Assembly: GCA_020073525.1 (NCBI GenBank)
Contig: JAIQFA010000001.1
Coordinates: 124,001 to 188,000, forward strand
Origin: Terriglobia bacterium
GTDB lineage: Bacteria; Acidobacteriota; Terriglobia; Terriglobales; Acidobacteriaceae
Reading direction: 5' to 3'
Length of the DNA: 64,000 nucleotides
Under the pieces are notes generated by a model. That model saw only the letters and a list, made by a program, of their open reading frames with translations. It did not search any database and was not told where the DNA came from. Positions 24,285 to 33,392 of the stretch are shown here, in pieces; positions within the stretch are counted from its first letter, which is position 1, and each line of letters begins with the position of its first letter. The translations under genes were made by a program, and so were the position numbers.

Positions 24285-26944
24285 CCACACCGGAACAGTG
24301 GCCAAAGATTAAGGAGATCGTCGGGGCGGCGCTCGAACGCGAGCCGTGCGAACGGGCCACCTTCCTCGACGACGCCTGCGCGCAACACCCAGAGTTGCGG
24401 GCGGAGGTCGAGTCCCTGCTCGCCGCGTATGCCGAGGCTGATGGGTTGTCCGAACATCCCTGGGCGCTCCCCCAATCCGACGTTGCGCAAGAGTCCAAGA
24501 CGATCGGGCCGTATCGACTAGTTCAGGAACTCGGCGTCGGAGGAATGGGACAAGTGTGGCTGGCGGAGCAAACCTCGCCGGTGCGCCGTCGAGTTGCGCT
24601 GAAGTTGATTAAGGCCGGGATGTACGACGCCGCTGTCGTACAGCGTTTCCAGGCGGAGCGGCAATCGCTAGCCCTGATGGATCATCCGGCGATCGCCAAG
24701 GTGTTCGACGCGGGCGCGACTGCCGTCGGTCAACCCTACCTCGTGATGGAGTACGTCGATGGTCTTCCGATCACCGATTACTGCGATCGGAAGAAACTGG
24801 GGATTCGCGATCGCCTGAAGCTGTTTTTGCAGGTATGCGAAGGCGTGCAGCACGCGCACCAGAAGGCCATCATCCATCGCGACCTGAAGCCTTCCAACAT
24901 TTTGGTAGTCGAAGTCGACGGGAAACCGATGCCGCGGATCATCGACTTTGGGCTGGCGAAAGCTATGGCATCCACCGTGCCCGGGGCAACATTGTTCACG
25001 CAGGTGGGGGCCTTTCTGGGCACGCCGGGATACATGAGCCCGGAACAAGCCGACCCGAACCTACACGACATCGATACGCGAACGGATGTTTATTCGCTGG
25101 GCGTGGTTCTTTACGAACTGCTGACGGGATCTTTGCCGTTTGACACGACGGAATGGAAGAAGCAGCGGCTGGATGATGTGTTGCGGCAATTACGGGAGAC
25201 CGATCCGCAGCGACCAAGTACCAAGGTCAACACGAATCGCGACACCTCGACAGCGCAGGCTGAAGCGCGCAGCACCGAACCGCGGCAACTGGCGACTTTG
25301 CTGAGAGGTGATCTCGATTGGATCACGCTCAAGGCGCTGGAGAAGGAACGGGAACGAAGATACGGCACGCCGTCGGAACTGGCCGCCGATATCACACGAT
25401 TCCTGGAGAACCGTCCGGTGGTGGCGCGTCCGGCGAGCACGGGGTATCGGCTAAGGAAGTATGTGCGGCGGAATCGCGCGGCGGTAGCGGTGACATTGGG
25501 CGCATTGGCGGTGCTGGTGGCATTCCTGGTGATGCAGGCAGTGCAACTGCGGCGCATCACGCGGGAACGCGATCGGGCGGACCGCATCACGCAGTTCATG
25601 ACCAACATGTTTAAGGTCTCCGACCCCGGCGAGTCTCGAGGCAACAGCATCACGGCGCGCGAAATTCTCGACAAATCATCAACGGAGATCGATACCGGCT
25701 TAGCTCAAGATCCGGAACTGCAAACGCGAATGATGGACACGATGGGCCACGTCTATGCCAACCTCGGCCTCTTCTCGAAGGCTCAGGCAATGTTTGAACG
25801 CACAATCGCCATTGGACGCCGTACCGGCCAGGCCTCGAATCCGGCCGTTTTGAGTTCGATGTCGCGACTGGCGTTCATTCTCATCCGCCAGGGTAAATAC
25901 CCGGATGCGGAGACGTTACTGCGAGAGACCATCGAGGGCCAACGTCGAACCGTGGGGCCGAATACGGAATCGACCCTGCAATCGATGCGCTACCTCGCCT
26001 ATGCTCAAGAAGGCGAAGGCAAGTACAAGGAAGCCGAGGTTACGGGCCGGGAGGCGCTTGATACGGATAAGCGTGTCCTTGGCCCTGAACACCCCGAGAC
26101 GTTGTTGTGCATGAACGAACTGGCCAACATCCTCGACGATGAAGGCAAGCTGCCTGAGGCGGAGAAGTTGTATCGCGACACACAAGCGATTCAAAGCCGC
26201 ACGCTAGGTCCGGATTATTTCGAGACCCTGACGACTGCTTCTAACCTCGCAGGCGTTTTGCAGGAACAGGGCCGCCTGGCCGAAGCGGAAAAGTTGCAGC
26301 GCGAGATTCTCGCCGTCCGCACCCGCGTGATTGGTCCCGACCACCCCGATACACTGCAAGTGAAGATCAACCTGGCAAACACCCTGGACTCCGGTGGACA
26401 ATACGCGGAAGCCGAAAGAATTTACCGTGAGTCAATCGAGACTCAGCGGCGGGTGCTTGGACCTGAGCACGCAGACATGCTCACCGCGATGCACAACCTC
26501 GGCGGAACCCTGCGTAGAGAAGGTCGATGGGGCGAGGCCGAGAAAGTTCAGCGCGAGACGCTCGCCCTTCGCCGAAAAGTGATTGGGCCCGAAAATCCGG
26601 AGACTCTGAAGACCGTCGGAGAACTGGCTCTGACTCTTTCTCATGAGAAGAAGTTCGACGAAGCGCGAAAGTTGTACGCCGAACGCATCGATGTTCTAGG
26701 CCGCACGCAAGGAAGGGCGGAGGCTGCGGCCGCTTGGTACGATTTTGCCTGTGGCGCTGCCGTCGCGGGGTTTTCCGAGGAGGCTTTCGACCACCTGAAG
26801 CACGCAATTGACGGCGGATTTTCAGATTTCGGGCAGATGCGCACCAACGAGCAGCTGAAGTCACTTCGCGGAGATCCACGTTTTGAAGCCCTGATCGTGA
26901 CGATGCATCAGCGCGCCACCGCATCCGCCAACAAGTCCAACTAG
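24281..26944 (+). CDS. Membrane serine/threonine protein kinase with TPR domain
   Basis: An 887-residue kinase. The Hanks-type domain (residues ~70-345) has the P-loop ELGVGGMGQVWLAE, catalytic Lys in VALKLIKAG, loop HRDLKPSNIL, and DFGLAKA, followed by GTPGYMSPEQ in the activation segment. A transmembrane helix lies near residues 405-425 (TLGALAVLVAFLVMQAVQL); the following ~450 residues carry about ten tetratricopeptide repeats of the NxxLAxxLxxQGxxxEAE type. The layout is the common Acidobacteriota kinase coupled to an ECF sigma factor. A GTG at 24281, overlapping the sigma stop codon, is preferred over the upstream ATG at 24230, which would lie inside the sigma gene. The C-terminal domain may sense a periplasmic partner. 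Confidence 0.93.
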   Translation: MTTPEQWPKIKEIVGAALEREPCERATFLDDACAQHPELRAEVESLLAAYAEADGLSEHPWALPQSDVAQESKTIGPYRLVQELGVGGMGQVWLAEQTSPVRRRVALKLIKAGMYDAAVVQRFQAERQSLALMDHPAIAKVFDAGATAVGQPYLVMEYVDGLPITDYCDRKKLGIRDRLKLFLQVCEGVQHAHQKAIIHRDLKPSNILVVEVDGKPMPRIIDFGLAKAMASTVPGATLFTQVGAFLGTPGYMSPEQADPNLHDIDTRTDVYSLGVVLYELLTGSLPFDTTEWKKQRLDDVLRQLRETDPQRPSTKVNTNRDTSTAQAEARSTEPRQLATLLRGDLDWITLKALEKERERRYGTPSELAADITRFLENRPVVARPASTGYRLRKYVRRNRAAVAVTLGALAVLVAFLVMQAVQLRRITRERDRADRITQFMTNMFKVSDPGESRGNSITAREILDKSSTEIDTGLAQDPELQTRMMDTMGHVYANLGLFSKAQAMFERTIAIGRRTGQASNPAVLSSMSRLAFILIRQGKYPDAETLLRETIEGQRRTVGPNTESTLQSMRYLAYAQEGEGKYKEAEVTGREALDTDKRVLGPEHPETLLCMNELANILDDEGKLPEAEKLYRDTQAIQSRTLGPDYFETLTTASNLAGVLQEQGRLAEAEKLQREILAVRTRVIGPDHPDTLQVKINLANTLDSGGQYAEAERIYRESIETQRRVLGPEHADMLTAMHNLGGTLRREGRWGEAEKVQRETLALRRKVIGPENPETLKTVGELALTLSHEKKFDEARKLYAERIDVLGRTQGRAEAAAAWYDFACGAAVAGFSEEAFDHLKHAIDGGFSDFGQMRTNEQLKSLRGDPRFEALIVTMHQRATASANKSN

Positions 26945-26965
26945 CTCAAGAGCAGGAAAGCTCGA

Positions 26966-26995
26966 TTGACAATTCTCCCTCGGCTGCCCTAGTAT
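26966..26995 (+). promoter_or_regulatory. Probable sigma-70-type promoter of the his operon
   Basis: TTGACA at 26966-26971 (perfect -35) and TAGTAT at 26990-26995 (-10), spaced by 18 nt. Transcription would begin near 27002-27004, placing the leader-peptide GTG (27006) at or within a few bases of the RNA 5' end. Confidence 0.75.
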
Positions 26996-27005
26996 CAAAC
27001 GCATC

Positions 27006-27077
27006 GTGACTCCGCTGACCCATCGCCACCATCATCATCACCATGCGATGAGCGTGTCGGCGGGGAACCACGGATAA
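27006..27077 (+). CDS. hisL: his operon leader peptide
   Basis: A 23-codon frame from GTG 27006 to TAA 27075-27077, read MTPLTHRHHHHHHAMSVSAG then NHG. Codons 6-13 are His-Arg-His-His-His-His-His-His (seven of eight His), and an eighth His is at position 22. A His run of this kind directly before hisI is the hallmark of a translation-sensing attenuator: with little charged tRNA-His the ribosome stalls over 27021-27044. No ribosome binding site can exist if transcription starts near 27003, so initiation would be leaderless or nearly so. The symbol follows the enterobacterial counterpart by function; sequence homology is not implied. Confidence 0.85.
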   Translation: MTPLTHRHHHHHHAMSVSAGNHG

Positions 27078-27113
27078 CCAAAGCACTCATAGGAAATCCA
27101 AGCCCGCTGGCGC
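27012..27113 (+). promoter_or_regulatory. his attenuator: alternative 1:2 and 2:3 RNA pairings
   Basis: Segment 1 (27012-27019, plus 27021-27026) pairs with segment 2 (27056-27063, plus 27045-27050): eight pairs with one G-U, and a perfect CATCGC/GCGATG stem around the His codons. Segment 2 (27054-27064) can instead pair with segment 3 (27103-27113): eleven pairs with three G-U. Segment 3 is also the left arm of the terminator. A ribosome stalled on the His codons covers segment 1, so 2:3 forms and transcription continues; a ribosome that reaches the stop codon, or no ribosome, leaves segment 3 free for the terminator. Confidence 0.82.
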
Positions 27114-27136
27114 AGTACTCGCCCAGCGGGCTTTTT
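27100..27136 (+). terminator. Rho-independent terminator of the his leader
   Basis: An 11-bp perfect stem (27100-27110 with 27123-27133, core AGCCCGCTGG/CCAGCGGGCT), a 12-nt loop and a run of five T (27132-27136) followed by GCTTTT. It lies 49 nt before the hisI start, after the leader peptide stop codon, the standard place for the attenuator's terminator. Confidence 0.9.
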
Positions 27137-27185
27137 GCTTTTACGCGAGTTATGGAAATTTGGCGCTTGAGATCAGGAGGTTTCG

Positions 27186-27554
27186 ATGGAGATCGATTTC
27201 GACAAGATGCAGGGCCTGGCTCCTGCAGTCATTCAGGATGTGGGCAGTGGAGAACTGCTCATGGTGGGCTTCATGAACCGGGAAGCGCTGGACCAGACAC
27301 TGCACACCGGATTCGTAACGTTTTACAGCCGCACCCGCCGGGCACTTTGGACCAAGGGAGAGAGCTCTGGCAATCGTCTGCAGGTGGTTGCCGCCTGGAC
27401 TGACTGCGACCGGGATACAGTCCTGTTCCGCGTCCGTGTGCTGGGCGAGGGCAAGGTCTGCCACACCGGAACGCGCTCCTGCTTTACGCAGGAACTCCCA
27501 CTGGCGAGTGAGCACGGAACCGCTCTGCTTGGGCAGGAGAGGGCGGAGCGATGA
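27186..27554 (+). CDS. hisI: Phosphoribosyl-AMP cyclohydrolase
   Basis: A 122-residue cytoplasmic enzyme opening the purine ring of phosphoribosyl-AMP (third step of histidine synthesis). The family blocks are all present: [31 protein letters not shown], the metal-binding [11 protein letters not shown] (about residues 79-89) and CHTGTRSCF (97-105) near the end. The protein ends after this domain, so it is the stand-alone HisI form; the fused HisE pyrophosphohydrolase of HisIE proteins is missing and no hisE gene is seen in the operon. A strong AGGAGG stands before the ATG at 27186. The gene is first in the operon, 49 nt after the attenuator terminator, and its stop overlaps the hisG start. 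Confidence 0.95.
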
Positions 27555-28420
27555 AATTGCGGCTGGGCATCCCCAAAGGAAGTTTGCAGGAAGCCACACT
27601 CAGCCTATTCACGCGCGCCGGACTTCGCGTGTATACCAACGCCCGCTCGTACTTCGCCGCGACCGATGATCCCGAGATCGAATGCATGCTCATTCGTGCC
27701 CAGGAAATGGCTCGATACGTCGAGCATGGAGCGCTGGACGCGGGCTTGACGGGCTTGGACTGGGTGCTCGAAAGCGGCCTCGATGTCGTCAAGGTCGCCG
27801 ACCTGATCTATGCCAAACAAAGCATGGGTCGCGTCAAGTGGGTGCTGGCCGTTCCGGAAGATTCGAAATTCCAGAAACTCGAGGACCTTGACGGGCGAAT
27901 CATTGCCACCGAACTGGTCAGTTTCACCCGCAATTACTTTGCGAGCCGGAAGGTTGACGCGCGGGTCGAGTTCTCCTGGGGCGCGACCGAAGTGAAACCG
28001 CCGCTCCTGGCAGACGCCATCGTCGAGGTGACGGAGACGGGCAGTTCACTGCGCGCCAATCACCTGCGAATTCTCGAAACTGTTCTGGAGTCGAACACGC
28101 AACTGATCGCGAACAAGGCTGCCTGGACGGATCCCGCGCGCCGGGAAAAGATCGAGAACCTGTCCGTCATGCTCAGGGGAGCTATGGCTGCGCACGGACG
28201 GGTCGGTTTGATGCTCAACGTGCGCAAATCAGACTTGCCTGCGGTTCTCGGCCTTTTGACGGCATTGAAAAATCCGACCGTCGCTCCCCTGGCGGATGGC
28301 GAGTGGGTCGCGGTCAACACCGTCATCGAGGAGAGCACCGCCTGGTCGCTGATTCCGAAGCTGAAGCAAGCCAACGCTCAGGGCATCGTCGAATATCCGC
28401 TGAACAAAGTGGTGATGTGA
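27551..28420 (+). CDS. hisG: ATP phosphoribosyltransferase (long form)
   Basis: A 289-residue enzyme catalysing the first step of histidine synthesis, joining ATP and PRPP. Its start [20 protein letters not shown] and the blocks [30 protein letters not shown] and [15 protein letters not shown] match HisG. The length and the C-terminal region ([19 protein letters not shown] to [20 protein letters not shown]) are those of the long form with the ACT-like regulatory domain that binds histidine, so no hisZ partner is needed. Feedback inhibition by histidine is therefore expected, in addition to attenuation. The ATG at 27551 overlaps the hisI stop codon (ATGA). Confidence 0.96.
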
Positions 28421-29694
28421 TGCGCAAAAACAATAACAAGGACTTGATGCGCATCCTCGGAGGCGACGAGCAGGCTCGTTTGGCGACGGCGCTCGCCGGA
28501 CGCGGCGCCACCGATCTGGCGGACGTCGAACCGGCAGTCCGCCGCATTGTGAGCGACGTTAAGCGTAACGGCGATCGCGCCGTACGTCGCTATGCGACAC
28601 GTTGGGACGGGCTGGGCAAGGGCGAGTCACTGCGTGTTCCCGAAGACGAGATCCACAAAGCTTGGGAACAAACCGATCCGGAGTTAAAGGCCGCGATCGA
28701 GCAGGCTGCGGGAAACATTCGCCGCTATGCGGAGTGGCAGGCGCCTCAGGAGTGGCGACGTGAAGTTGAGTCCGGCATCAGCATCGGCCAGTTGGTTCGC
28801 CCGCTGGAGTCGGTGGGATGCTATGTCCCGGGCGGCCGTTACCCTTTGCCTTCCACGTTGCTCATGACCGTGATTCCCGCGCAGGTTGCTGGTGTAAAGC
28901 GGATTTGCGTCGCGTCTCCACACCCCGCGCCGGCAACCTTGGCGTCAGCGGCGTTTCTCGGCGTGCGCGAGTTTTACCGCGTTGGGGGCGCGCAGGCGAT
29001 CGCCGCCCTTGCCTTTGGAACGGAAGATATCCCGCGCGTCGACAAGATCGTGGGTCCGGGCAACCGATATGTCACCGCTGCCAAGAAGCTGGTAGCTTTC
29101 GATTGCGCCATTGAATTTCTGGCGGGCCCCACCGAAGCCGTCATCATCAGCGCCGATGGCGATCCGGCTTGCATTGCCTCCGACCTGGTAGCGCAGGCCG
29201 AGCATGATCCTGATGCGCTGTGTATCTTCCTAACGACGTCACGAGCGCTAGCAAAGAAAATTCAGAAGGAAGTGCAAAGACGGACGCGCACCAATCCGAT
29301 CGCCGCCCAGTCGCTCTTGCGGCGCGGCGCTATCCTGCTGGTCGCTTCGCTGGAACAGGCCGTCGCGACCGCGAATCGCCTCGCGCCTGAGCATCTCACC
29401 CTCCCAGCTGCGCTGGCTCCCAAGGTACAGCATGCCGGTGCAGTGTTCCTCGATGAGTTCACGCCTCAAGCTGCAGGGGACTACGTCTCCGGACCGAACC
29501 ATGTGCTGCCCACTGGTGGCATGGCGCGCGTGCGCGGTGGGCTCAGCGTGCACGATTTTGTTCGCGTCATCGCTTGTCAGCAGGTGTCCCGGACAGGAAT
29601 TCGCCGCATCGGACCGGCCGGCATCACCCTGGCGACTGCCGAAGGCCTGCAAGGACACGCCGAGGCATTCCGAGTGAGGTGCTCCCGTGCTTAA
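28420..29694 (+). CDS. hisD: Histidinol dehydrogenase
   Basis: A 424-residue zinc enzyme that oxidises histidinol to histidine in the last two steps of the pathway. Recognised blocks are VPGGRYPLPSTLLMTVIPA, GGAQAIAALAFGTEDIPRVD, KIVGPGNRYVTAAKK, GPTEAVIISADGD, the catalytic and metal-site region AQAEHDPDALC, and the C-terminal NHVLPTGGMARVRGGLSV. The frame opens at 28303 inside hisG; the ATG at 28420, overlapping the hisG TGA by one base (TGATG), is the proper start and gives the usual length. The gene follows the normal hisGDC order seen in many bacteria. Confidence 0.96.
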   Translation: MRKNNNKDLMRILGGDEQARLATALAGRGATDLADVEPAVRRIVSDVKRNGDRAVRRYATRWDGLGKGESLRVPEDEIHKAWEQTDPELKAAIEQAAGNIRRYAEWQAPQEWRREVESGISIGQLVRPLESVGCYVPGGRYPLPSTLLMTVIPAQVAGVKRICVASPHPAPATLASAAFLGVREFYRVGGAQAIAALAFGTEDIPRVDKIVGPGNRYVTAAKKLVAFDCAIEFLAGPTEAVIISADGDPACIASDLVAQAEHDPDALCIFLTTSRALAKKIQKEVQRRTRTNPIAAQSLLRRGAILLVASLEQAVATANRLAPEHLTLPAALAPKVQHAGAVFLDEFTPQAAGDYVSGPNHVLPTGGMARVRGGLSVHDFVRVIACQQVSRTGIRRIGPAGITLATAEGLQGHAEAFRVRCSRA

Positions 29695-30775
29695 CGCTCG
29701 CGAAGCCGTAAAAAATCTGCAAGCGTATCGTCCCCCGTTAGCTGGTCGAACCGGGCTGCGTCTCGATTTCAACGAAAGCACAGTGGGGTGTTCGCCGCGC
29801 GTGCTAGCCCGGTTGCGCTCGCTCGATTCCGAACTGCTGGCGCGCTATCCCGAGCGCGAACCGGTTGAAAGAGAAGTCGCCGGCTTTCTCGGACTCGATC
29901 CGGCGCAGGTTCTGCTCACCAACGGAGTCGATGAAGCCATTCACCTGCTTTGCTCCACGTATCTCGATCCGGGGGACGAAGCGCTCATCGTAGTGCCCAC
30001 GTTCGCCATGTACGCGATCTTCGCTCAGGCCGAAGGCGCCCGCGTGATCGAAGTGCGCGCCGGCGAAAACTTTGCATTTCCCTTGCAGGATGTGCTCGCC
30101 CGAATCAGCCCCCGCACCCGGCTCATCGCAGTGGCGAATCCTAACAATCCGACTGGAGCAGCGGCCCCCGGCGATGTTCTCCTGCAGATCGCGCAAGCAG
30201 CCCCGCAAGCTGCATTGCTCGTCGATGAGGCCTATTTCGAATTTCACGGCGAAACGCTGATCGAGCAGACCCGCAAGATTGAGAATCTGTTCGTGGCGCG
30301 AACCTTCTCCAAGGCCTACGGACTCGCCGGTTTGCGCATCGGCGTTCTAGCGGGAGCAACTGGACAGATGGCGATGGTCCACCGCGTCGCCTCGCCCTAC
30401 AGCGTGAATGCGGCCGCCCTCGCGGTCCTGCCCGAGGCGCTGCGCGATCAGGAGTACGTTGGTGGCTATGTTGCGCAAGTTCTCAGAAACCGCGAGAGAT
30501 TGCAGCAGGAACTTGGCTATCTCGGATTGCACTACTGGTCGAGCCACGCTAATTTTGTCCTCGTACGCATTGGCTCAGGTCACGCGGAGTTCGTTCGAGC
30601 CCTGCGTGATCGCGGAATTCTGGTGCGCGACCGCCACTCTGACCCGGGATGCGAAGGCTGCGTCCGCCTGACCATAGGAACGGACGATCACACGCACCGC
30701 CTCATCGCCGCGCTGCGAGACCTAGTTGAAGAACTTGGCTTGCGAACTGGTTTTCGAAGCGAGGTGCGGGTGTGA
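29687..30775 (+). CDS. hisC: Histidinol-phosphate aminotransferase
   Basis: A 362-residue PLP-dependent transaminase of fold type I, converting imidazole-acetol phosphate and glutamate to histidinol phosphate. The N-terminus has [17 protein letters not shown], the cofactor region [10 protein letters not shown] and [10 protein letters not shown], and the PLP lysine in [16 protein letters not shown] (Lys near 206). It is close in length to HisC proteins; the late EGCVRLTIG segment replaces the common CLRITVG. The start is GTG at 29687, inside the end of hisD (8-nt overlap). Aromatic-aminotransferase activity is a possible second role, as in many HisC enzymes. Confidence 0.94.
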
Positions 30776-31359
30776 GGAAAGCCAAACTGCATCGCAAGAC
30801 GGCGGAAACGGAAATTCGAATTGCCCTCACCATTGAGGGACGCGGGAAGTACGAAGTCTCCACGGGCATTCGTTTTCTTGACCACATGTTGGAGTTATTC
30901 ACCCGTCACGGCGGCTTCGATTTGAAGCTCGCCGCACTGGGCGACCTGGATGTGGATCAGCACCACACCGTCGAAGATGTCGGCATCAGCCTGGGTGAGG
31001 CGTTTGACCGCGCGCTGGGGGACCGGCGCGGCATCCTGCGAGCCGGATATTTTCTGATGACCATGGACGAAACCCTTGGCCTCGCGGCCGTGGACTTCGG
31101 CGGCCGCGCGGTGTCCGTCGTCCAGACTAGGGTGCGAGCGACTCGAGTCGGCGATCTCCAGACGGAACTGGTCGATGATTTCTTCGAGGGCTTTGCCCGC
31201 GGCGCGCGCGCGAATGTTCATGTGCGTGTCCTGTACGGGCGCTCCAGCCATCACAAGATCGAAGCGCTCTTCAAAGCTTTTGCACGCGCGCTTCGTGTTG
31301 CCTGCTCCCGCGACCGCCGCCTGGGACGAATGTTGCCGAGCACGAAGGGACTCTTATGA
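30772..31359 (+). CDS. hisB: Imidazoleglycerol-phosphate dehydratase
   Basis: A 195-residue metal-dependent dehydratase, forming imidazole-acetol phosphate. The two metal-binding His clusters are in [17 protein letters not shown] (about residues 36-52) and [17 protein letters not shown] (about 62-78); a second such pair, [20 protein letters not shown], is near 155-175. It lacks the histidinol-phosphatase domain fused to HisB in enterobacteria, so that step needs a separate enzyme, not seen in this window. The GTG start at 30772 overlaps the hisC stop in a GTGA. Length is normal for monofunctional HisB. Confidence 0.95.
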
Positions 31360-31952
31360 TCGCCATCGTGGATTACGGCGCCGGCAACCTGAATTCAGTG
31401 AAGAAAGCGTTCGACTATCTCGGCGCCGAAGTCGTCGTCACCGCGCACCCTGAAACAATCGCAGCGGCCGACAAGATCGTGTTGCCTGGTGTCGGGCATT
31501 TCTCTGCGTTGGGAGGTCTCGACAACAAGGGCCTAAGAACTGCCGTCCTGCAAGGCGTACGTGCCGGCAAGCCCATGCTCGGAATCTGCCTGGGAATGCA
31601 GTGGTTGTTCGAAGGCAGCGACGAGGCTCCCGAACTGGCGGGCGCGGGAATCTTCGCAGGGAGATGTCAGCCATTTCCGTCGTCGGTGAAATCGCCGCAC
31701 GTTGGATGGAACTCGCTCGCGATTCGGGATGGCTCGCGCTTGCTGCGTAACGTTGCGCCCGACTCTTTCGTTTACTATACGCACTCATTTCAAGCGCCGG
31801 TGGTTGCCTCCACCTCGGCGATGACAGAGTACGGAGCACTGTTTTCGGCCGTCGTCGAACACGAAAACACTTTCGGAGTGCAGTTCCATCCGGAAAAATC
31901 GTGGACCGTGGGGCTACTTATTCTCGAGAATTTCTGCGAGGCCGATTTGTGA
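31356..31952 (+). CDS. hisH: Imidazole glycerol phosphate synthase, glutaminase subunit
   Basis: A 198-residue class I glutamine amidotransferase. It forms ammonia from glutamine for HisF in a tight complex. The oxyanion region [13 protein letters not shown], the nucleophilic Cys in [13 protein letters not shown] (near residue 80) and the His-Glu pair in [10 protein letters not shown] (near 178-183) are all present. The ATG at 31356 overlaps the hisB stop (ATGA). The internal [15 protein letters not shown] matches the family's conserved GWN block. It is placed directly before hisF, as expected for subunits of one enzyme. Confidence 0.96.
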
Positions 31953-31962
31953 GGTACGACAA

Positions 31963-32724
31963 GTGCTAACCAAACGCATCATCGCCTGTCTCGACGTGGA
32001 CGATGGCCGCGTTGTAAAAGGCGTGCAGTTCGTTAATCTCCGCGATGCAGGGGACCCGGCCGACTGTGCCGCTGCCCATGCTTGCGACGGCGCAGACGAG
32101 ATCGTTCTGCTCGACATCACCGCCACCAGCGATAAGCGCAATACCATGCTCGACGTCGTCTCCCGCACCGCGCGCGGTTTGTTTATTCCGTTCACCGTCG
32201 GCGGAGGAATCCGCGAACTCGCCGATGCCGAAGCCGTGTTCGAGGCCGGTGCCGACAAGATCGCCATCAATTCGGCTGCGGTGCAGGACCCGTCGCTGAT
32301 CGGGAAAATTGCCGCGCGTTTCGGTTCGCAGGCGGTCGTGGTCGCCATCGATGCCCGGCGGGTGAACGGAGGTTTCGAAGTATTCGTCGCCGGAGGCCGC
32401 ACTCCCACCGGCCGCGACGCGTTGCAATGGGCGCGGGAGGCTGCCGCGTGCGGCGCGGGAGAAATTCTGCTGACTTCCATGGACTGCGACGGAACCCAGG
32501 CCGGCTTTGACTGCGAACTGGTGCAGTGTGTCGCCGACTCCGTTTCCATTCCGGTGATTGCGTCAGGAGGCGCCGGGTCGGCGCAACACTTTATTGATGT
32601 GTTTCGCGACGGACGCGCGGACGCGGCTCTGGCCGCATCCATCTTCCATTTCGGCATCGAGAACATCGCGCAATTAAAGAAGGAACTGCACAACGCCAAC
32701 GTGCCCGTGAGGTGGCCATGCTGA
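31963..32724 (+). CDS. hisF: Imidazole glycerol phosphate synthase, cyclase subunit
   Basis: A 253-residue TIM-barrel enzyme using ammonia from HisH to form imidazole glycerol phosphate and AICAR. The N-terminal catalytic Asp is in [17 protein letters not shown] (residue ~11), the phosphate sites in [10 protein letters not shown] and IASGGAGS, and the second catalytic Asp in [15 protein letters not shown] (near 129). The strand [20 protein letters not shown] is typical. It begins with GTG 11 nt after the hisH stop, the only non-overlapping junction in the operon. Its end overlaps the hisA start by 7 nt. Confidence 0.96.
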
Positions 32725-33392
32725 TTCCATCGATCGATCTTATGGGTGGCAAGATCGTGCAGTTGGTTCAGGGAGAAAAGAAGAAGCTGGAATTCGATAA
32801 CTTCGACTATTGGATCGAACGCTTTTCCAAGTTTCCCATTGTTCAAGTCATAGATTTGGACGCGGCCCGCGGAGCCGGCAACAACCGCGCGTTGGTGGAG
32901 CAGATTGCCGGCCGCCTCAAATGCCAGGTGGGCGGCGGCATTCGCAACCTCGAAAGTGCGCGGGAGCTTCTGAACATCGGTGCGCACAAGGTGATCATCG
33001 GGTCCGCGTTGATGAACGAAGGCCGGATCAACCGTGAGTACGCCCGTACGCTGGCGGAGACGCTATCTAAGTCGGCGCTTATGTTTGCAATCGACTCCCG
33101 AGGAGGCCGGGTTGCGATTGATGGTTGGCGTACACAGACTACCGTCACTGCTTTCGACATGATTCGCGAGCTGGAACAGTTCTGTGAGAGCTTCCTGTAC
33201 ACCCACATCGACACCGAGGGCCTAATGGGCGGCATTCCGATGGAAACGGTTCATGCGATCCGACGGGCCACGCAACGACACCTGGTGGTCGCGGGCGGTA
33301 TTACCGAGCAGCAGGAAATCGACAGCCTCGACGCGCTGGGAATTGATGCCGTGGTCGGCATGGCGCTGTATTCCGGAAAACTTCGCGTTTGA
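32718..33392 (+). CDS. hisA: HisA-like ProFAR isomerase
   Basis: A 224-residue TIM-barrel protein in the place of hisA, the isomerase that opens the ribose of ProFAR. It begins [20 protein letters not shown], with the first catalytic Asp in place, and has [20 protein letters not shown], a phosphate site in [12 protein letters not shown], and [16 protein letters not shown] with the second catalytic Asp. It diverges from common HisA in the strand [11 protein letters not shown], where most members have a D-I-x-R-D-G-x pattern. The ATG at 32718 (GAGGTGG upstream) is preferred to the GTG at 32712. Being co-transcribed with all the other his genes and with both catalytic Asp, it is very probably the isomerase. 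Confidence 0.87.

Follow-up and report, generated by a model that had tools for sequence, protein, structure and literature searches.

The DNA ahead of hisI in a 6.0-Mb acidobacterial genome raises the question of how its histidine operon is controlled. The initial annotation read this region as a complete histidine attenuator in which all positions of the enterobacterial model are present. The analysis described below points to a ribosome-dependent transcription attenuator of the hisIGDCBHFA operon that very probably responds to charged His-tRNA. Judged from its sequence, the leader follows classical attenuator logic but not the enterobacterial plan.

The leader locus and the operon behind it

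The element occupies positions 26966-27136 of the forward strand of the window, the window being the whole stretch of 64,000 nucleotides that was analysed. It opens with a sigma-70 type promoter (26966-26995) located by pattern search: a -35 box, TTGACA, at 26966-26971, an 18-nt spacer, and a -10 box, TAGTAT, at 26990-26995. As the initial annotation had claimed, the promoter is there, and it is the single such site on both strands of 26500-27600 (shuffle mean, 0.2). The RNA is expected to start downstream of it, near 27001-27003. The his leader ORF, VTPLTHRHHHHHHAMSVSAGNHG, has a GTG start and 23 codons and lies at 27006-27077, with its stop codon, TAA, at 27075-27077. Seven of the eight codons at 27021-27044 code for His (residues 6 and 8-13), residue 7 being Arg; both the 23-codon frame and its His run are as originally described. 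The sequence and the relatives mark these His codons as the likely regulatory ones.

Several helices can form in the RNA. A small hairpin (CAUGC/GCGUG, 27042-27056) starts at the run's last His codon and reaches into region 2. Region 2 (27054-27064), the 5' arm of the putative antiterminator, lies inside the leader ORF and is defined by its pairing with region 3 (27103-27113). The 3' arm, region 3, overlaps the 5' arm of the terminator. Regions 2 and 3 form 11 pairs, three of which are G-U or U-G. The intrinsic terminator (27100-27136) consists of an 11-pair stem, 27100-27110 with 27123-27133, and a T run at 27132-27136, and is located between the leader ORF and hisI. The RNA of 27003-27140 folds at -55.5 kcal/mol (z = -4.88), a value that none of 200 shuffles equals, and the minimum-energy fold contains the 1:2 and terminator hairpins.

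The his operon follows 49 bp after the element. It consists of eight genes in the order hisIGDCBHFA, all on the same strand. The first, hisI (27186-27554), codes for phosphoribosyl-AMP cyclohydrolase (NF000768, 133.2 bits; cut-off, 126) and is preceded by AGGAGG at 27175-27180. The others, hisG, hisD, hisC, hisB, hisH, hisF and hisA (27551-33392), were assigned by profile matches. The genes hisG, hisD, hisC, hisB, hisH and hisF each score at or above cut-off against one or more matching models; the best profile of hisA, TIGR00007, scores 174.6 bits, under its cut-off of 228.95. The closest HisI relatives among the matches listed are records labelled Acidobacteriaceae.

Leader, start and pairing in relatives

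Upstream DNA of hisI was taken from named contigs and from genomes of the window's family. The main set consisted of 112 acidobacterial loci, each with 226 nt or more 5' of hisI; some genomes were reached twice (e.g., L028 and L149, whose contigs are equal in length), and dinucleotide shuffles served as the control. L082 and L083 were removed as copies of L017 and L020, and L006 and L144 owing to contig ends. A frame with at least four His in eight codons, followed by a stop, is found in 111 of the 112 loci versus 40 of 2240 shuffles. When at least five His are required, the numbers are 110/112 versus 1/2240, and with at least six they are 92/112 versus 1/2240. Chance is ruled out as the source of this frame. 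The sole exception, L013, has a covariance-model match 552-691 nt upstream of hisI. In this locus (about 810-1500), 552 nt separate the his leader from hisI, and they include a group II intron match at 1042-1208.

Another 52 loci from the named contigs had enough upstream DNA. Four of these carry the frame at the level of at least four His in eight, in records labelled Acidobacteria (two), Arcobacter (one) and Thermoleophilia (one); it is absent from the other 48, including one acidobacterium, Geothrix (L080). L027, which is labelled Chloroflexi and in which no leader was found, belongs to neither the 112 nor the 52. The Arcobacter label (L030) may be wrong, since the leader closely resembles that of the acidobacterial L033, and the his leader in the record labelled Thermoleophilia (L044) could be due to transfer or convergence. 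In L019 (about 950-1020), the His run is stretched to about twenty codons and the leader has two unknown bases; slippage or an assembly error is possible. A strict terminator scan was positive in 102 of 115 leader-bearing loci and failed in 13.

The promoter was examined in 114 leader loci, excluding L019. A promoter-like pair is present in 109, and in 92 of these 109 the -10 box ends 6-11 nt upstream of the leader start. A pair scoring at least 8 with 6-12 nt between the -10 box and the start occurs in 95/114 loci versus 15/2280 shuffles. A Shine-Dalgarno-like motif is found ahead of 8/114 leaders versus 84/114 hisI genes, with search windows that differed in length: 15 nt upstream of the leader and 27 nt upstream of hisI, whose start was taken as that of the protein match. 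In 28 of the 35 his leaders fetched with the covariance model, TANNNT lies 5-13 nt, mostly 9 nt, ahead of a possible start, a count that carries no shuffle control. Since the start codon follows the -10 box by 6-12 nt and Shine-Dalgarno motifs are rare, the leader is probably translated leaderless. According to the available part of PMC8079986, Streptomyces lividans RNA begins on average 6.3 nt past the -10 box; if this spacing is valid here, translation of the leader would begin at the 5' end of the RNA or close to it.

Pairing was analysed in an alignment of 86 sequences less than 85% identical, with shuffle controls that take no account of common descent. In the antiterminator (2:3), 84.3% of cells are paired, with 20 double-change cells versus 6.2 in shuffles. 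In the terminator, 90.8% are paired, with 64 double-change cells versus 25.4. The five pairs of the small hairpin are formed in 85.3% of cells, with 29 double-change cells versus 11.7. Two of its five measures do not exceed shuffles, namely the number of double-change pairs (reached by 169/500) and the pair types (207/500). Sliding one partner cuts pairing to 27-50% for 2:3 and to 28-54% for the terminator; the small hairpin slid by +2 is still 69.3% paired. At slides of +1 and +2, 2:3 has 6 and 5 pairs with a double change versus 4 in the true register, but fewer such cells. When the partners of regions 2 and 3 were permuted among sequences, none of 2000 permutations gave pairing as good as that of the true partners, although the true partner was better than the mean swap in just 58/86. 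With region 4 absent and a ribosome occupying the His codons, 73/86 sequences have 2:3 in their minimum-energy fold and 13/86 do not, counts again given without a shuffle control. Region 2 lies exactly 9 nt past the final His codon in 59/86, and the distance between region 2 and the stop is 5-26 nt, most often 11 nt (38/86). Both spacings fit a ribosome footprint.

These comparisons bear unequally on the helices first proposed. The 11-pair stem and T run of the terminator are present, with compensatory changes in relatives. The antiterminator was claimed with 11 pairs; the 2:3 pairing is present and covaries, but it includes three wobbles, and just 18/86 relatives retain the 11th pair. The long 1:2 helix exists in the window but is poorly kept in the alignment and was rejected as a general feature. 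RNAalifold indicated the small hairpin in its place, and by the alignment the part of the 1:2 pairing that is conserved at its core appears to be this five-pair hairpin (27042-27056). At the outset, an attenuator was to be rejected if relatives had lost the His run or the compensatory pairing; such loss was looked for, and both features are retained. The leader, the conserved terminator and the covarying antiterminator ahead of the his operon thus argue, at the level of sequence, for a peptide-coded his attenuator in an acidobacterial genome, as had been suggested.

Spread in the phylum and other amino acid leaders

A covariance search of other Acidobacteriota had been recommended. The model matches 99 of 396 phylum genomes at E <= 0.001. 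The 42 matches among 44 genomes of the window's family are not independent evidence, as this family supplied most of the training sequences. The two family genomes with no match are G010, which has no hisI match, and G116, which is not among the hisI matches listed. Outside the family 57/352 genomes matched, weak matches included. Forty matches were fetched, 39 from outside the family and one a second match inside; the 18 outside matches left are all weak. Thirty-five of the 40 precede his genes: hisI-hisG in 29, hisG in three, hisZ in two and hisD in one. All 31 fetched outside-family matches with E below 2e-5 are his leaders, and false ones appear at 2.6e-5 and weaker. The five matches that proved not to be his leaders lie before metY (with a Met-rich leader), asd, glmS-like, GWxTD-domain and carA-like genes. 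With false matches among the weak ones, weak matches need checking, and the 57 genomes should not be read as that many proven leaders. In 17 genomes with other labels, the model gave two weak matches (E 9.4e-5 and 2.5e-4), and Geothrix also has two weak matches; those of L030, L033, L037 and L044 are not independent of the training set. Positions of hisI across the phylum were not turned into a presence count, since hisI need not head the operon in other classes. The presence of the attenuator in many families suggests an old vertical trait of the phylum.

The Rfam model of the enterobacterial element, His_leader (RF00514), was above its cut-off in none of 199 phylum genomes, searched with stricter filters. 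There was one sub-threshold match, in G245 (36 bits versus 49), away from that genome's R1 site. In the control, RF00514 gave matches in E. coli and C. glutamicum, above the cut-off in one of them. An Rfam scan of the whole window gave no family at its cut-off, RF00514 included. The seven sub-threshold matches within 26950-27190 include no T-box or riboswitch; the three on the plus strand are Thr, Trp and Leu operon leaders, far under their cut-offs.

The same genome (G000) carries leaders rich in other amino acids. Its ilvB, on the minus strand of G000:C110, is preceded by an Ile/Val-rich leader (ITIVVVGVVV; L262, the same place as L304); the leader MQILIQPVRITIVVVGVVVNHEALAGGCAN and a terminator lie ahead of an acetolactate synthase gene. 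This is a probable branched-chain attenuator. In addition, a Cys-rich leader (L300, G000:C199) lies before a NirA/sulfite-reductase-like gene that scores under the models' cut-offs. A DNA search with the ilv leader gave mainly short terminator matches, which led to a pattern search. The ilv-terminator pattern occurs at 19 places in 17 of 150 family genomes, and the reversed control gave none. Upon reading of the candidate frames, 12 of the places are Cys-rich, six contain Thr/Ile and one is the ilv leader. L300 and its relatives L295, L298, L303, L305-L308, L312 and L314-L319 are short Cys-rich leaders with a similar terminator (L288, L290 and L292 being the same places as L308, L312 and L307). 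Short Thr/Ile-containing leaders with the same terminator module are L301, L302, L309-L311 and L313 (L291, L293 and L296 equal L311, L310 and L302). The genes after the Thr/Ile-containing leaders are read as aspartokinase, with a profile check for L309 only. Downstream genes at nine of the 19 places and at L300 code for sulfate-binding protein, cysteine synthase, NirA/sulfite-reductase-like protein (three), aspartokinase, acetolactate synthase and, near L315, a family 2A encapsulin. The genes downstream of L314 and L319 gave no profile match, and a sulfurtransferase after L312 is assigned by reading only. In three genomes from a different acidobacterial family, Met-rich leaders (e.g., MKNATLPTMAMMMRMSMRK...) with a terminator lie ahead of metY (L233/L267, L268, L269). 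The DNA before trpE was examined in the genome of the window and in six relatives; short frames with two Trp in ten residues occur at L243, L245 and L247, and none was a convincing leader.

These leaders (His, Cys, Thr/Ile, branched-chain, Met) may share one plan and make up a set of leaderless leader-peptide attenuators that spans the phylum, with the sensing codons swapped and the promoter geometry and terminator modules kept. The chances for and against such a set appear about even. In the promoter check, the leaderless promoter was weak or not found at most non-His leaders, which counts against a single shared plan. If the set is real, charged-tRNA sensing would be coupled to 70S initiation on leaderless RNA.

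Predicted mechanism and comparison with known attenuators

From the leader with its His run, the competing helices, the promoter geometry and the downstream genes, all evident in the sequence and its comparison, we infer the course of RNA start, leaderless initiation, stalling and read-through. RNA polymerase would start a few bases from the GTG, and a ribosome would begin on the leader at the 5' end of the transcript or close by. If His-tRNA ran short, the ribosome would stall on the His codons, covering the 5' half of the small hairpin. Region 2, left free, would pair with region 3, no terminator would form and the operon would be read. When His-tRNA is plentiful, the ribosome would reach the stop codon and mask region 2, allowing 3:4 to form and transcription to end at 27132-27136. 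If there is no translation, region 2 would be kept in the 1:2 hairpin, again leading to termination. His-tRNA as the signal is deduced from the leader codons and the downstream genes.

Other readings fit parts of this evidence. The leader RNA folds well, and an intrinsic terminator by itself suits many types of leader. The region might therefore sense a protein or metabolite, as a riboswitch, a T-box or the target of an RNA-binding protein, with the His run incidental. This is very unlikely, as none of the window's Rfam matches attains its family's cut-off, the sub-threshold matches in 26950-27190 are of other kinds, the His run recurs in 111 of the 112 loci of the main set, and its spacings to the helices fit a ribosome. 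The run might instead matter as a peptide: His runs bind metals, and the poly-His product could act through metal binding or exit-tunnel arrest rather than through decoding rate. We give this extremely little weight. Among fetched model matches with at least four His in eight codons, 35 of 36 precede his genes, the odd one (L241) being a longer poly-His frame ahead of a carA-like gene. Furthermore, Cys, Thr/Ile, Ilv and Met codons elsewhere precede genes of the fitting pathway in the cases checked, as expected of codon sensing.

A charged-tRNA-sensing attenuator might also have been acquired ready-made, by horizontal transfer of the enterobacterial his attenuator, with which it shares its codons, its pathway and its logic. 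Such an origin seems most improbable given the lack of RF00514 matches above the cut-off in the 199 phylum genomes, the different number of segments, the leaderless geometry and the presence of the leader in many phylum families.

In the trp operon attenuator, four segments form the pairings 1:2, 2:3 and 3:4, and a ribosome at the stop codon masks region 2. The acidobacterial leader has the same 1:2, 2:3, 3:4 layout, with region 2 predicted to be masked by a ribosome at the stop; it differs in sensing His, in its leaderless geometry, and in a region 2 that begins 3 codons past the His run. The E. coli his leader, as outlined in the available text of PMC10989985, has hairpins AB, CD and EF, the alternatives BC and DE, and a 16-residue HisL. 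Seven His codons, an intrinsic terminator, alternative pairing and a downstream his operon are common to that attenuator (RF00514) and the present one, going by the same text. The acidobacterial leader nevertheless has four segments, 23 residues and leaderless geometry, its antiterminator arm lies within the ORF, 9 nt past the last His codon of the run, and it is not picked up by RF00514 at the cut-off of that model. Both the consensus of the 86 sequences and the fold of 27003-27140 show two hairpins only and not the six-segment enterobacterial layout. The claim that all positions of the enterobacterial model are present therefore does not hold, given four segments, an antiterminator arm in the ORF and a probably leaderless start.

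The initial focus on Gammaproteobacteria was also too narrow. As far as the accessible parts of these papers go, His leader peptides are known in Firmicutes, ahead of hisS-type genes of bacilli (PMC2965389) and in three lineages whose leaders have three to five consecutive His codons (PMC9413887). These likewise combine a His-run peptide, a terminator and an antiterminator; they belong to another phylum, and leaderless geometry is not mentioned in those parts. In the literature on leaderless leader peptides, to the extent available, no leaderless His leader is named. The titles and abstracts listed, most subscription journals lying outside them, describe no acidobacterial leader-peptide attenuation, and an earlier description is possible; in the available portion of PMC4833913, acidobacterial leader genes appear just as a distance peak.

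Leaderless leader-peptide attenuators include trpL of Sinorhizobium meliloti and trpL1, ilvL, leuL1 and leuL2 of S. lividans (PMC7298713, PMC8079986, in the portions available). Polycysteine ORFs of M. smegmatis are also leaderless and act on translation, as cited in the available sections of PMC9031893 and PMC13236596. As described there, the leader ORF of these systems starts at the RNA 5' end and has codons of the sensed amino acid; the acidobacterial leader likewise has such codons, and its promoter geometry would put its start within a few bases of the 5' end. The known systems serve other amino acids in other phyla. The acidobacterial his leaders separate the logic of his attenuation from its enterobacterial design and suggest that a leaderless leader peptide is a solution of more general use. 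The covariance model together with the leader rule provides a way to find elements missed by Rfam's His_leader.
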